Positions 4,174 through 42,550 of a stretch of 43,652 bases of DNA are shown here, in pieces (within the stretch, counting starts at the first letter, position 1; each line of letters begins with the position of its first letter). Made by a program: the position numbers and the translations under genes. Origin of the DNA: an uncultured Ruminiclostridium sp. (GTDB lineage: Bacteria; Bacillota; Clostridia; Oscillospirales; Ruminococcaceae); contig CANQXF010000019.1 of assembly GCA_947627695.1 (NCBI GenBank), positions 1 through 43,652 on the forward strand, read 5' to 3'. Below the pieces are notes generated by a model that did no database searches, was not told the DNA's origin, and saw nothing but the letters and a program-made list of their open reading frames with translations.

Positions 4174-5613
4174 TTAAACGGACAGCTCCGCTTTCTCTCC
4201 CAGAAGCTCCTTATTCCTTTCCAGAACGGGCTGTACGCATTCTTTCAGGAAGCTGTCGACCTGGGACGGACAGCGCCCGATATAATTTTCGGGCTTAAGC
4301 ACCGCCTTTATCTCCTCGGCGGTTATCATAAACAGCGGGTCAGCGGCTATGCGTTCAACAAGGTCGTTTTCGCCGCCCTCCTCCTTTACGACTTTAGCGG
4401 CGGCTATGCTGTGCTGACGGAGAGCCTCGTGAAGCTCCTGGCGGTTGCCGCCTTTTTCAACTGCTCGCATCATTATATTTTCAGTCGCCATAAAGGGGAG
4501 CTCCTTCATCACTCTCGCCCTTATGGATTTTTCGTATACCACAAGCCCGTCGGTGACGTTCAGCATAATGTTCAGGATAGCGTCTACGGCAAGGAAGGCT
4601 TCGGCTACGGAAATGCGCTTGTTGGCGCTGTCGTCAAGGGTGCGCTCGAACCACTGGGTGCCGCTGGTGAAGGCGGGGTTCAAGGCGTCTATCATAACGT
4701 AGCGGGCAAGGGAGGTTATGCGCTCGCAGCGCATAGGGTTGCGCTTGTAGGGCATTGCGGAGGAGCCTATCTGATTTTTCTCAAATGGCTCTTCCATTTC
4801 CTTGAAGCCGGCAAGGATACGCATATCGTTGCTGAATTTGGAGCAGCTTGCGGCAATTCCCGCAAGGACGTTCACAACGCCTGTGTCTATCTTTCTGGAA
4901 TAGGTCTGACCGCTGACGGGAACGCATTTTTCAAAGCCCATTTCCTGGGCTATCATCTGCTCTAATCTGTCTATCTTTTCCTCGTCGCCGTGGAAAAGCT
5001 CCATAAAGCTGGCTTGTGTGCCTGTTGTTCCCTTTTGCCCGAGGAGCTTCAGAGTGCTTATGCGGTACTCAAGATCCTCAAGGTCCATCAAAAGCTCGTT
5101 GGTCCAGAGGGCAGCGCGCTTTCCCACCGTGGTGAGCTGCGCAGGCTGAAGATGAGTGTAGGCAAGGCAGGGCAGGGATTTGTATTTTTCCGCAAAGGAG
5201 GCGAGGTTCGATATCACGTTTACCAGCTTGCGGCGGATTATTTGCAGAGCGTCACGCATAATGATTATATCGGTGTTATCTCCGACGTAGCAGGAGGTGG
5301 CTCCCAGATGGATTATCCCTGCGGCGTCGGGGCAGACCTGACCGTAGGCGTAAACGTGGGACATTACGTCGTGACGGACGAGCTTTTCACGCTCCTCGGC
5401 AACGTCAAAGTCTATGTTGTCCACGTTTGCCTCAAGCTGAGCCACCTGCTCGGGGGTGATGTTCAGCCCAAGATTCATTTCCGCCCTGGCAAGGGCTACC
5501 CAAAGGCGGCGGAAGGTGCTGAACTTTTTCTGCTCGGAAAAGATGTACTGCATTTCCTTGCTTGCGTAGCGGCTGCAAAGGGGGCTTTGATAGGTGTTGT
5601 GATCTCTTGACAT
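4174..5613 (-). CDS. purB: Adenylosuccinate lyase, animal-type
   Basis: Catalyses two steps of purine synthesis: SAICAR to AICAR plus fumarate, and adenylosuccinate to AMP plus fumarate. The 479-aa protein belongs to the fumarase/aspartase superfamily. The signature loop GSSAMPYKRNP (residues 283-293) carries the catalytic serine, with active-site histidines in RHDVMSHV (H81/H86 region) and THLQPAQ (H154). Length and several exact blocks (AAGIIHLGATSCYVGDNTD, KGTTGTQASF, WFERTLDDSAN) match the human ADSL type, about 480 aa, rather than the roughly 430-aa Bacillus PurB. The ATG at 5613 has AAGGAG upstream. It is monocistronic with its own promoter and is not in a pur operon here. No T-rich terminator is obvious after it. 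Confidence 0.96.
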   Translation of the reverse strand: MSRDHNTYQSPLCSRYASKEMQYIFSEQKKFSTFRRLWVALARAEMNLGLNITPEQVAQLEANVDNIDFDVAEEREKLVRHDVMSHVYAYGQVCPDAAGIIHLGATSCYVGDNTDIIIMRDALQIIRRKLVNVISNLASFAEKYKSLPCLAYTHLQPAQLTTVGKRAALWTNELLMDLEDLEYRISTLKLLGQKGTTGTQASFMELFHGDEEKIDRLEQMIAQEMGFEKCVPVSGQTYSRKIDTGVVNVLAGIAASCSKFSNDMRILAGFKEMEEPFEKNQIGSSAMPYKRNPMRCERITSLARYVMIDALNPAFTSGTQWFERTLDDSANKRISVAEAFLAVDAILNIMLNVTDGLVVYEKSIRARVMKELPFMATENIMMRAVEKGGNRQELHEALRQHSIAAAKVVKEEGGENDLVERIAADPLFMITAEEIKAVLKPENYIGRCPSQVDSFLKECVQPVLERNKELLGEKAELSV

Positions 5614-19238: not shown

Positions 19239-19517
19239 TCAGAATAAATCGCTGTGAGTTCCCGTTCTGATAAGCCGTAAAATAAGGGTCTCCTCAACTA
19301 TCTGATATATCAGCAGCCAATCGGGTTGGATATGACATTCTCTCATTCCCTTGTAGTTTCTTGAAGTTATGAGCGAGTGGTCGTGATATATTTCGGGCAG
19401 GGGTTCTTCCCTGCACAGCAGTTCGACGACGGTTTCCAACTTTTTCGAGTCAAAGCCGCGCTTAACGGCAAGCCTAAAATCACGCCTAAATTGCCCTGAA
19501 AATTCCGGTTTAAGCAT
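19239..19517 (-). CDS. yafQ: YafQ-family mRNA interferase toxin
   Basis: A 92-aa RelE-superfamily toxin expected to cleave mRNA on the ribosome. It retains residues equivalent to the YafQ active site: H47 (YHDHSL), H62 and D66 (RECHIQPDW), and H88 in the C-terminal RTGTHSDLF. It therefore looks intact. The ATG at 19517 overlaps the antitoxin stop by 8 bp, the usual coupled antitoxin-toxin arrangement. It is convergent with ftsH and shares its terminator. Confidence 0.93.
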   Translation of the reverse strand: MLKPEFSGQFRRDFRLAVKRGFDSKKLETVVELLCREEPLPEIYHDHSLITSRNYKGMRECHIQPDWLLIYQIVEETLILRLIRTGTHSDLF

Positions 19518-19776
19518 TCAGCGCCTCCATAAGCTCAGCAACGCTGTCGAAAGGTCCGTACATATCCTCGCCCTTATTTGCGGATTCTATAGCGGCAAGA
19601 GTTGTTTTGTTGGGAATTTCCCGTGTAATATTGAATGGTATGCCGCCTTCATATATCATTTGCTTTAAAAAAATGTTTACAGCGGTGGAAAGGTCCATAC
19701 CAAGCTCAGCGAGCAAAGCCTGCGCTTTTGCTTTCGTTTCAGCGTCAATGCTGATGTTGGCGGATACTTTTGCCAT
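19510..19776 (-). CDS. dinJ: RelB/DinJ-family antitoxin
   Basis: An 88-aa antitoxin. The N-terminal half (MAKVSANISIDAETKAKAQ, LGMDLSTAVNIFLKQM) is the ribbon-helix-helix DNA-binding fold of the RelB/DinJ family. The C-terminal half (IPFNITREIPNKTTLAAI...FDSVAELMEALNA) would wrap and neutralise the toxin. AAAGGGG precedes the ATG at 19776; a longer upstream reading lacks a ribosome site and covers the -10. It is first gene of the pair, and the operator-containing promoter just upstream implies autoregulation by the complex. Confidence 0.93.
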   Translation of the reverse strand: MAKVSANISIDAETKAKAQALLAELGMDLSTAVNIFLKQMIYEGGIPFNITREIPNKTTLAAIESANKGEDMYGPFDSVAELMEALNA

Positions 19777-19800
19777 TATATCAACCCCTTTCTGTAATAT

Positions 19801-19842
19801 AGTATAACGTATTATGCGCATTTTGTCAATATATTATGCGCA
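19801..19842 (-). promoter_or_regulatory. Toxin-antitoxin promoter with direct-repeat operator
   Basis: On the minus strand, TTGACA (19824-19829) and TATACT (19801-19806) have a 17-bp spacer. An exact 11-bp repeat, TATTATGCGCA on the plus strand, occurs at 19810-19820 (in the spacer) and 19832-19842 (just upstream of the -35). The copies are 22 bp apart, i.e. two helical turns on the same DNA face. The placement suggests binding by the antitoxin complex. Confidence 0.85.
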
Positions 19843-22485: not shown

Positions 22486-23367
22486 ATGAAAAAGACTGTT
22501 TTTACAGGGGCGGGCGTTGCCATAATAACGCCGATGTTCAGTGACGGAAGCGTAAATTACGACAAGCTGGGGGAAATGATAGAGGAGCAGATAGCGGGCG
22601 GCACTGACGCAATAGTTATCTGCGGAACGACAGGCGAAGCCTCCACACTGGACGACGACGAGCATATCGAATGTATAAGATACGCTATAAAGAAAGTAAA
22701 CAAGCGTGTTCCCGTTATTGCGGGAACGGGGAGCAACGATACCGCTTATGCAACGTCGATGTCGATTGACGCTCAGTATGCGGGGGCGGACGCTTTGCTG
22801 CTGGTGACTCCATACTACAACAAGACCTCGCAGAGGGGCTTGGTGCAGCATTTTATCCATACGGCGAACGCTGTGGATATTCCCATAATACTGTATAATG
22901 TGCCTTCAAGGACTGGGTGTAAGATAGAGCTTGCAACCTACAAGGAGCTGGCAAAGCACCCTAACATTGTTGCCGCAAAGGAGGCAAGCGGAGACATTGG
23001 TCTGGTGGCGAAGATAGCGGCGGAAACTGATCTTGATATTTATTCGGGCAACGACGACCAGACGGTGCCGATAATGTCACTTGGCGGAAAGGGCGTTATT
23101 TCGGTGGCGTCAAACGTTATTCCCAAGGAAGTACACGAGATGACGAGCCTTGCGCTGAACGGGGATTTCAAGGGGGCGGCGGAGCTGCAGCTTAAATATC
23201 TTGAGCTGATGAACGCTTTGTTCTGCGACGTAAATCCTATTCCTGTGAAAGAGGCTATGAACCTTATGGGAAAAGGCGTGGGAGAGTGCAGGCTGCCGCT
23301 GGTGAAGATGGAGGATAAGAAGATCGAGGCGCTGAAAAAGGTGCTGGAGAAGTATGGGTTGGTGTGA
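22486..23367 (+). CDS. dapA: 4-hydroxy-tetrahydrodipicolinate synthase
   Basis: Condenses pyruvate with aspartate semialdehyde, the first committed step of the diaminopimelate/lysine pathway. The 293-aa TIM-barrel aldolase has the pyruvate-binding [10 protein letters not shown] motif, Y137 in LYNVPSRTG, and the Schiff-base lysine K165 in VAAKEASGD. The ATG at 22486 has GAAAGGA upstream; a longer in-frame reading would overlap asd without a ribosome site. An unusual hairpin array follows before dapB. Confidence 0.98.
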
Positions 23368-23418: not shown

Positions 23419-23522
23419 GGGCGGCGAAGCCGCCTTTGGCTTGGCGTATGCCAAGCCAAAGTGCCGCTTGTCGCAGACAAGCGGCAGGCGCCCCCGAAGG
23501 GGGCGCCGCGGCGAGCCGTGGC
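23419..23522. repeat. Array of four to five tandem hairpins between dapA and dapB
   Basis: Consecutive inverted repeats lie almost without gaps. H1: GGCGGC-GAA-GCCGCC (23420-23434). H2: a 12-bp stem (23434-23445 with 23450-23461), loop GTAT. H3: an 11-bp stem (23462-23472 with 23476-23486), loop GCA. H4: GGCGCCCCC-GAA-GGGGGCGCC (23487-23507). H5: an overlapping stem around GCCGCGGC/GCCGTGGC (23505-23522). The region is far richer in GC than its surroundings and has no T-run. It looks like an intergenic palindromic repeat element, transcribed within the dap operon. No second copy was found in this window. Confidence 0.85.
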
Positions 23523-23619
23523 AGGCATAAAATGAGGGGCAGTTCCCTGCTGTTAAGACGCGGGAGCTTACCTTCTACGAAAAGGGCAATCACAATAATT
23601 ATATCGGGAAGTGAAAATT

Positions 23620-24375
23620 ATGGTAAGGATAGCTATAACAGGCGCCTGCGGAAAAATGGGCAGAGTTATCGCAGGGCTTATCGCTCAGCGGGAGGACTGC
23701 GAGGTTTGCGGGGGGATAGATATTGCGGGAGAGCAGTATGATAATTTTCCCGTTGTGAAAAAGGTGTTCGACCTGCCTGAAAAGCCTGACGTTATCATCG
23801 ACTTTTCTCACCCGTCGGCGCTGGAGGACCTGCTGAGCTACTGCAAGATGAAGAACGTTCCCGCCGTTATCGCTACGACGGGATATGATGAGGAGCAGAT
23901 TGAAAAGATAAAGCTGGCGGCGCAGCAGATACCGCTGTTCTTTACCTTTAACCTGTCGCTGGGGATAAATCTGCTGGCAGACCTTGCAAAGAGGGCGGCA
24001 AAGGTGCTGGGCGGTCAGTTTGACGTGGAGATAGTGGAAAAACATCACAATCTCAAAAAGGACGCTCCCTCAGGAACGGCGATAATGCTGGCGGAGGCGG
24101 TGAGCGAAGAGCTGCCCCGCAAGTCCAGATACGTTTACGACCGTCACAGTGTGAGAAAGCCGAGAGAAAAGGAAGAGATAGGTATTCATTCCGTCAGGGG
24201 CGGCACTATCGTAGGCGAACACGAGATAATCTTTGCGGGGCACGACGAGGTGATAACCCTGTCACACTCTGCTCAGTCGAAAGAGGTCTTTGCTGTGGGC
24301 TCGGTGAATGCGGCGATGTTCCTTATCGGCAAGCCTGCGGGGCTTTACGATATGTCAGATCTGCTGAAAGGGTAA
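23620..24375 (+). CDS. dapB: 4-hydroxy-tetrahydrodipicolinate reductase
   Basis: Reduces the dapA product with NAD(P)H in diaminopimelate/lysine synthesis. The 251-aa protein has an N-terminal nucleotide-binding GACGKMGR and the signature EKHHNLKKDAPSGTA with the catalytic His/Lys pair. The C terminus KPAGLYDMSDLL is typical. The ATG at 23620 fits GGGAAG 8 nt upstream; a GTG at 23611 is the alternative. It lies 252 bp after dapA, the gap holding the hairpin array, and 3 bp before the ACT gene. Confidence 0.97.
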   Translation: MVRIAITGACGKMGRVIAGLIAQREDCEVCGGIDIAGEQYDNFPVVKKVFDLPEKPDVIIDFSHPSALEDLLSYCKMKNVPAVIATTGYDEEQIEKIKLAAQQIPLFFTFNLSLGINLLADLAKRAAKVLGGQFDVEIVEKHHNLKKDAPSGTAIMLAEAVSEELPRKSRYVYDRHSVRKPREKEEIGIHSVRGGTIVGEHEIIFAGHDEVITLSHSAQSKEVFAVGSVNAAMFLIGKPAGLYDMSDLLKG

Positions 24376-42478: not shown

Positions 42479-42519
42479 AGCGGCGGGAAACGAGTGTTTA
42501 AGTAATCAATTGCATAATA

Positions 42520-42550
42520 AAAGCAGACGTAACATTACGTCTGCTTTTTG
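42520..42550. terminator. Bidirectional terminator
   Basis: A 12-bp stem AAAGCAGACGTA/TACGTCTGCTTT (42520-42531 with 42536-42547) has a 4-nt loop and T-runs on both exits. It lies between the convergent Na/Pi gene and the lipoprotein gene. Confidence 0.9.

Follow-up and report, generated by a model that had tools for sequence, protein, structure and literature searches.

A dispersed three-armed palindromic DNA element in Ruminiclostridium, with paired stem changes and inverted loops and cores between relatives

The stretch of DNA that was analysed (43,652 nucleotides from an uncultured Ruminiclostridium sp., henceforth referred to as the window) contains a dapA-dapB gene pair whose intergenic gap is occupied by five abutting palindromes, as found by reading and parsing the sequence (Table 1). 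A terminal unit, T1 (GCGGC-GAA-GCCGC), is followed by three perfect hairpins and by a decayed counterpart, T2; T1 can form a hairpin of its own or a closing stem with T2. The stems, loops and order given in the first-pass annotation were correct on parsing, with the last C of its 6-bp stem shared with the next hairpin, and the fifth unit that it placed at the end of the cluster is the degenerate T2. The dapA stop lies 243-252 bp from the dapB start, depending on the dapB start codon chosen, in agreement with the 252-bp gap noted earlier.

Table 1 Features of the dapA-dapB region, in window coordinates.
Feature	Position	Strand	Basis or remark
dapA, upstream neighbour	22486..23367, including stop	+	ORF list
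Whole cloverleaf core (T1, three arms, decayed T2)	23421..23521	.	sequence read, hairpin parse
Terminal unit T1, GCGGCGAAGCCGC	23421..23433	.	same unit ends the other copies
Arm 1, 12-bp stem, loop GTAT	23434..23461	.	sequence read, hairpin parse
Arm 2, 11-bp stem, loop GCA (GAA in relative G048)	23462..23486	.	
Arm 3, 9-bp stem, loop GAA	23487..23507	.	sequence read, hairpin parse
Degenerate terminal unit T2, GCGGC-GA-GCCGTGG	23508..23521	.	GCGGCTGAGCCG in G048 and G034
dapB, downstream neighbour	23611..24375; start GTG 23611 or ATG 23620	+	ORF list

The hairpin cluster exceeds chance, as the first-pass annotation had held. Five perfect hairpins with a stem of at least 8 bp and a loop of 3-4 bases were counted in the window, three of them the arms in the dap gap, against a mean of 1.45 and no adjacent pair in simulated windows (n = 20). 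The window copy folds at -53.3 kcal/mol as DNA (z = -7.7) and at -84.3 kcal/mol as RNA (z = -7.3), values equalled by 0/200 shuffles in each case. T1 pairs with T2 in both folds, so that the whole cluster is one three-armed cloverleaf closed by a stem, a pairing which, like the dispersal of the element described below, goes beyond the earlier description. An intrinsic terminator was rejected, in line with that description: the hairpins are G+C-rich, but neither strand of the sequence shows a T-run next to the element. Elsewhere in the window, further perfect hairpins at 42519-42548 and 4717-4735 (13-bp and 8-bp stems) are perhaps terminators, and an adjacent ORF pair at 19239-19821 on the minus strand resembles, by eye from the ORF list, a YafQ/RelE-type toxin with a DinJ/RelB-type antitoxin.

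The genome-wide palindromic repeat family proposed in the first-pass annotation was recovered in the genome of origin by several searches. With the element as query, blastn at an E cut-off of 10 returned 56 matching pieces, a count that takes in the query. The 19-base T unit, allowing up to 3 mismatches, occurs at 39 places in the 67-contig assembly compared to 2 for a reversed control; 37 of these are element ends, one is a solo T and one is unrelated (C27:74). Parsing yielded 25 copies with both T units intact, plus the window copy. A covariance model, R1, was built from 17 sequences drawn from the genome of origin, G048 and G034. It finds 26 places in the genome of origin and 9 in G048; the window copy, itself among the building sequences, is matched at 23429-23512 on the minus strand with an E value of 2.5e-7.

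The architecture of the copies is uniform. Exactly three abutting arms, which together with the closing stem make a four-way junction, are present in 25/25 cores of the genome of origin with any T loop letters allowed, in 23/23 cores of its relative G028 and in 8/8 of G048. The T1 and T2 loops are complementary in 25/25, 22/23 and 7/8 parsed copies of these three genomes, respectively, and in 2/4 of G034. The first parses fixed the permitted T loops, and repeating them with any T loop left the counts for the genome of origin unchanged; that repeat omits one non-compact row of G048 and five of G034, and two T-T stretches having no compact fold (L008:1297 and L052:743) were dropped from the arm, loop and architecture counts. 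In those copies of the genome of origin that leave two bases between the T core and the arms, these are a C-G pair that lengthens the closing stem. Arm loops in the genome of origin are of the GNA/TNC type in 54/75 arms and AAA/TTT in 15/75, and the loop-closing pair is 5'-C...G-3' in 74/75. C-G-closed GNA-type loops are the context of very stable DNA mini-hairpins, hairpins of the d(GCGAAGC) type being exceptionally stable.

A scan for structure only, accepting two to five abutting perfect hairpins enclosed by an inverted repeat, gave a single match in 400,000 sampled bases of the genome of origin, and it was three-armed. Within 100,017 bases picked for their copies, the scan recovered 12/14 known copies, all three-armed; each of the two that were missed contains a mismatch. 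There were two matches in 396 kb of G321, in a sample that took in its two known places, and none in G013 or G067 (400 kb each) or in Markov controls.

The copies are clustered, with 7 on contig C7 and 7 on C10 (14/26 on 7.5% of the assembly) and none on C1-C4 (822,594 bases). They occupy gaps between ordinary genes: 19/20 neighbouring proteins picked for scanning have Pfam matches, including isocitrate/isopropylmalate dehydrogenase, asparagine synthase, an ABC transporter and a response regulator, and long ORFs overlapping some copies are taken to be spurious stop-free frames. For the 23 copies with both neighbours called by mechanical ORF calling, the neighbours are co-directional in 17 cases, divergent in 4 and convergent in 2. 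A TGTGC/CTGC-type motif is present in 46/50 flanks compared to 304/1,463 control stretches, which suggests either longer degenerate ends or a target preference. Additionally, GGGG directly precedes CGGC at the end of 30/50 flanks. The left flank of a copy resembles its own right flank no more closely (7.4) than that of another copy (7.8).

The distribution of the element is narrow in the genomes searched. At E <= 0.01, R1 matches 9/71 genomes of the genus and leaves 62 without a match. Strong matches are found in the genome of origin, G028 (which had no part in model building), G048 and G034. G015 and G001 have the same architecture with flanks similar by eye, one G015 copy having A+T-rich stems, and stems are lineage-typical in G034, G015 and G001; the matches in G036, G021 and G059 were rejected as other multi-hairpin structures by fold. 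Among 295 genomes of the order, six match at E <= 1e-4, namely the four strong carriers plus G321 and G336, which belong to a second genus of the family (g42) and show the same fold with different T units (GGGCGAAGCCC-type). Because filters in such large searches are stricter, these genome counts are lower bounds.

Several other candidates were set aside. Matches in G019 belong to tandem repeats of another kind. On contig C3 of G028, four pattern matches are unlike the element. That contig also carries a separate repeat of ~95 bases, CGGCAAAGCCG...CTTTCCCGCC..., at L175, L176 and L177, outside the cloverleaf family. A three-armed cloverleaf with a long closing stem and the terminal letters GCGGCGTGCCGC in G021 (L248, G021:C42, locus 1501-1605) may be convergent or of a related kind, and a locus in G036 (L247, G036:C25, 1501-1591) holds a single long near-perfect hairpin with a GCGGCGAAGCCGC end unit. 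Phage or plasmid cargo was rejected, as the exact pattern had no match in viral_contigs and one 187-base query had no blastn match in phages or plasmids. Loss of SbcD was likewise rejected as a cause: SbcD is over the cut-off in 13/71 genus genomes and in 0/6 carriers, but it is also missing in 52/65 non-carriers.

The copy at the dap site has orthologues in G028 and G048, where the 1,871-base dap stretch is 95% identical. In the more distant G034 (76-80% identity), a T-three-arms-T structure stands at the same place with unrelated stems, inner unpaired bases in one arm, the T2 variant seen in G048 and a homologous right flank. The dap copy is an old resident, as judged from the like structure at this place in G034, and its stems have been rewritten or replaced. 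An independent insertion in G034 was rejected because having the T2 variant and the right flank in common speaks for descent, though the interior may have been exchanged by recombination. From 590 stretches encoding DapB relatives, 80 other dapB loci were kept, and three adjacent perfect hairpins were found in 0/80. By tblastn, dapA relatives adjoin dapB in the 40 loci examined; the gap measures 12-93 bp at 34 of these loci and 192-589 bp at the other 6. In one dapA-dapB gap of another species (L068), a run of N lies between two copies of a distinct hairpin repeat.

Stem letters vary widely from copy to copy while the fold is kept. In 10 aligned long-type copies, 18/49 pairs changed on both sides (55 cells), 99.4% of cells were paired with 3 unpaired, and no cell carried a one-sided change to another standard pair, wobble included; the covariation score was reached by 0/500 shuffles. 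With the 26 copies of the genome of origin oriented alike, the arms contain 861 Watson-Crick pairs, no G-T pair and 3 mismatches, a count that leaves out mismatched ends of arms, which the fold trims. Read the other way round, L016 shows G-T at one such end, as any A-C mismatch does on the opposite strand. Transcribed structures usually tolerate G-U pairs. A DNA cruciform or a copying process would account for pairing this strict on both strands, which points to a fold of DNA and not of RNA. The first-pass annotation had looked to dispersed copies, conserved unit order and compensatory change as signs of such a family; all were found, the last on a massive scale, and the hairpins persist in close relatives.

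Changes between relatives were followed in orthologous copies, 21 paired with G028 and 8 with G048. Flank identity to G028 is 94.2% over 41 flanks, which omits two short flanks and one at 75.5%, and 93.8% over all 44, the flanks of neighbouring copies overlapping. In 57 equal-length hairpins, 3 of 628 stem pairs changed on both sides and 4 on one side only, or 0.8% per site, while 28/56 triloops changed (33% per site); both rates omit 6/63 hairpins, three of unequal length and three of L008, and a separate both-side count for G028 (32) is inflated by those six. All 29 changed triloops comprise 12 that differ at one site, 4 at two and 13 at three; with inversion allowed, 9 show no difference, 15 differ at one site, 4 at two and 1 at three. 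Loop orientation could be scored in 57/63 hairpins, and 13/57 were flipped: 9 are exact inversions, and the other 4 carry a substitution as well. Exact inversion accounts for 9/33 changed loops, where random draws from the pool of loops would give 4.1 (p = 0.012), a moderate excess. In G048, 4/18 scorable loops were flipped. T loops, although they stand in the same C-GAA-G context, are nearly unchanged in the genome of origin and G028, as expected if the T1 and T2 loops pair mutually. The earlier suggestion that GAA loops mark selection is not supported by these data, since arm loops change fastest and flip to TTC.

Inversion was also observed on a larger scale. In L003/L178 and L006/L213 (G028) and in L011/L199 (G048), the whole core is turned round while the flanks are kept; in L008/L212, inversion is combined with loss or gain of an adjoining copy, and L051/L216 lies within a longer inversion, of 439 bases, at an outer repeat. 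The latter inversion, between the genome of origin (L051:617-1055, G000:C10) and G028 (L216), is bounded by another inverted repeat, GTTGACAGTGTACAG..., that has TTTTCGCC-type hairpins; similar pieces occur elsewhere in the fetched stretches. Pairs L018 and L048 with G048 have weak or one-sided flank support and were excluded from all claims. Assembly errors could be a source of false changes.

A functional RNA, in which a stable cloverleaf in the transcript stabilises or punctuates mRNA and sets the dapA:dapB ratio, is in our judgement quite improbable. Such a role would suit the low free energy of the RNA fold of the window copy, the 17/23 copies between co-directional ORFs, and the presence of the dap copy in G028 and G048 with a like structure in G034. 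However, there are no wobble pairs among the varied cells, loops flip and cores turn round at their sites, six copies have divergent or convergent neighbours, and none of the 80 other dapB loci has three adjacent perfect hairpins. For 17 loci and the window region, Rfam gave only matches that fall short of the gathering score, so that a known RNA family was rejected. The loop flips, in-place core inversions and wobble-free paired changes together indicate DNA rather than RNA. An operon-specific role in mRNA stability, offered by the first-pass annotation, is thus not upheld as the main reason for the family, in view of the missing wobble pairs and of neighbours in every orientation. Such a role is probably absent; the dap copy may have a local effect on dapA:dapB. 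Overall, that annotation is confirmed in its observation of the hairpin cluster and partly supported in its interpretation.

Single sites differ between relatives as well. At two sites, one genome has a single T and the other the full element. The solo T at C6:56889 in the genome of origin represents a deletion, as judged from a GCGGG repeat at the junction and an arm remnant; the second, in G028 at the place of C10:52349, fits a deletion. The place of L009 has other repeats in G028 and no element, and no G028 counterpart of L018 or L052 was found in the stretches fetched. These losses bear on the idea that the element is a selected chromosomal landmark bound by a four-way-junction protein such as a nucleoid protein or junction resolvase. 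The invariant three-armed junction and the clustering on C7 and C10, with C1-C4 empty, would suit such a site, but the copy number differs (26 versus 9 in G048), the 62/71 genus genomes have no model match under strict filters, and single sites are lost, from which it follows that no landmark role is essential. We regard this explanation as very unlikely.

The element is best read as a REPIN-like, non-autonomous palindromic repeat. REPINs, as described in PLoS Genet 2011 (PMC3116915), are extragenic, dispersed REP doublets with inverted palindromic ends and a spacer, show compensatory changes in the folded form, and can adopt a "clover" as one of two named folds; singlets are taken there as remnants. 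The 25 copies likewise have two inverted palindromes, T1 and T2, around a short spacer. They differ in the arms that fill it, which are perfect, abutting and always three, in loop and core inversion between orthologues and in the GTAG tag, present within 20 nt in 0/50 flanks. Y1_Tnp (PF01797, RAYT) has no match in the genome of origin, G048, G034, G015 or G001; G028 has one partial copy with an internal stop, and 20/71 genus genomes have a match. A RAYT-driven REPIN in the strict sense was therefore rejected, there being no GTAG/CGTC tags and no Y1 gene in 5/6 carriers. GTAG- and CGTC-tagged REP dimers are described in BMC Genomics 2013 (PMC3733652) as head-to-head, in some cases with spacer stem-loops, and heterogeneous in their letters, the CGTC class having no transposase link. 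The missing transposase link is common to that class and to our element, but the CGTC tag occurs within 20 nt in only 2/50 flanks here, CGTC units have 8-9 bp stems with 4-5 base loops (same paper) compared to 5-6 bp and 3 bases in T, and the three arms are invariant here. Our literature search did not find the element described, though earlier reports may exist.

MITEs and fungal mitochondrial double-hairpin elements are short, non-coding, palindromic and dispersed. The element resembles MITEs in having terminal inverted repeats (T1/T2 and the degenerate flank motif), but differs from both in its closed three-armed junction, and no parent element was found among the 39 T matches of the 67-contig assembly. 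A non-autonomous transposon moved in trans, with a recombinase or transposase recognising the folded single strand, selection keeping the arms and template switching minor, would account for dispersed copies with related interiors in different surroundings, for the flank motif and GGGG/CGGC ends, and for lineage-typical stems that change more slowly than flanks. It is nevertheless unlikely, given the Y1_Tnp results and the absence of a target-site duplication signal (longest left/right shared word 5.7 within versus 5.6 across copies, the outer ends not being fixed), and it would not yield exact triloop inversion. Mobility by copying, as in the favoured explanation below, is likewise putative: that signal is absent, both solo-T sites are read as deletions (one of them clearly so), and the change at the L009 site could have run in either direction.

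The favoured explanation, which we hold to be reasonably probable, is a dispersed non-coding DNA element in which template switching re-copies and flips the arms, with some added constraint. T1 and T2, in inverted order around three hairpins, let one strand fold with no unpaired bases at the junction centre, and the arms and the whole core would fold back during replication. Inter- or intra-strand template switching could then re-copy one arm from the other, giving paired changes with no wobble intermediates, and could invert both the arm loops and the core between T1 and T2, at two nested scales. Wobble-free paired changes, inverted loops and inverted cores are all possible products of template switching at inverted repeats. 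The dap-operon copy would be an old insertion passed on by descent. Unbiased template switching alone predicts that pairs change at about the pace of the flanks, ~36/628 by our estimate, compared to the 7 seen. Stems thus change at roughly a fifth of the predicted rate, from which we infer that something further constrains the fold; selection for spread or persistence, acting on the folded form, is the probable cause and would keep stems slower than flanks.

A precedent exists in hairpins of rRNA genes. Monttinen and Loytynoja (PNAS 2022, PMC8794818) describe hairpins made by template switching with one-step paired stem changes and inverted loops, derive fully inverted loops as a footprint of inter-strand switching, and report loop inversion alone in 69 mutation clusters in all rRNA data, with compensatory change and loop inversion together being rare and unenriched. 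Paired stem changes and inverted loops are found here too; the difference is that 13/57 loops are flipped between just two genomes, in a dispersed DNA element that is no RNA gene.

The family bears on an old question: does selection maintain perfect palindromes, or does copying produce them? It offers dozens of hairpins with orthologues in genomes ~6% apart, whose stems, loops and cores can be scored separately, and so makes hairpin template switching measurable in natural bacteria. It is also a warning against taking compensatory change as proof of functional RNA, and it adds a REP-like family that has neither the usual tag nor the usual transposase. More tentatively, and with rather low expectation, the element may be selfish DNA defined by structure, in which a perfect three-armed four-way junction is inherited and copied while its sequence is not. 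Such DNA would spread and be renewed without its own transposase, by replication template switching and the processing of junctions. If so, its stems could be rewritten and its loops and cores flipped while the fold persists.
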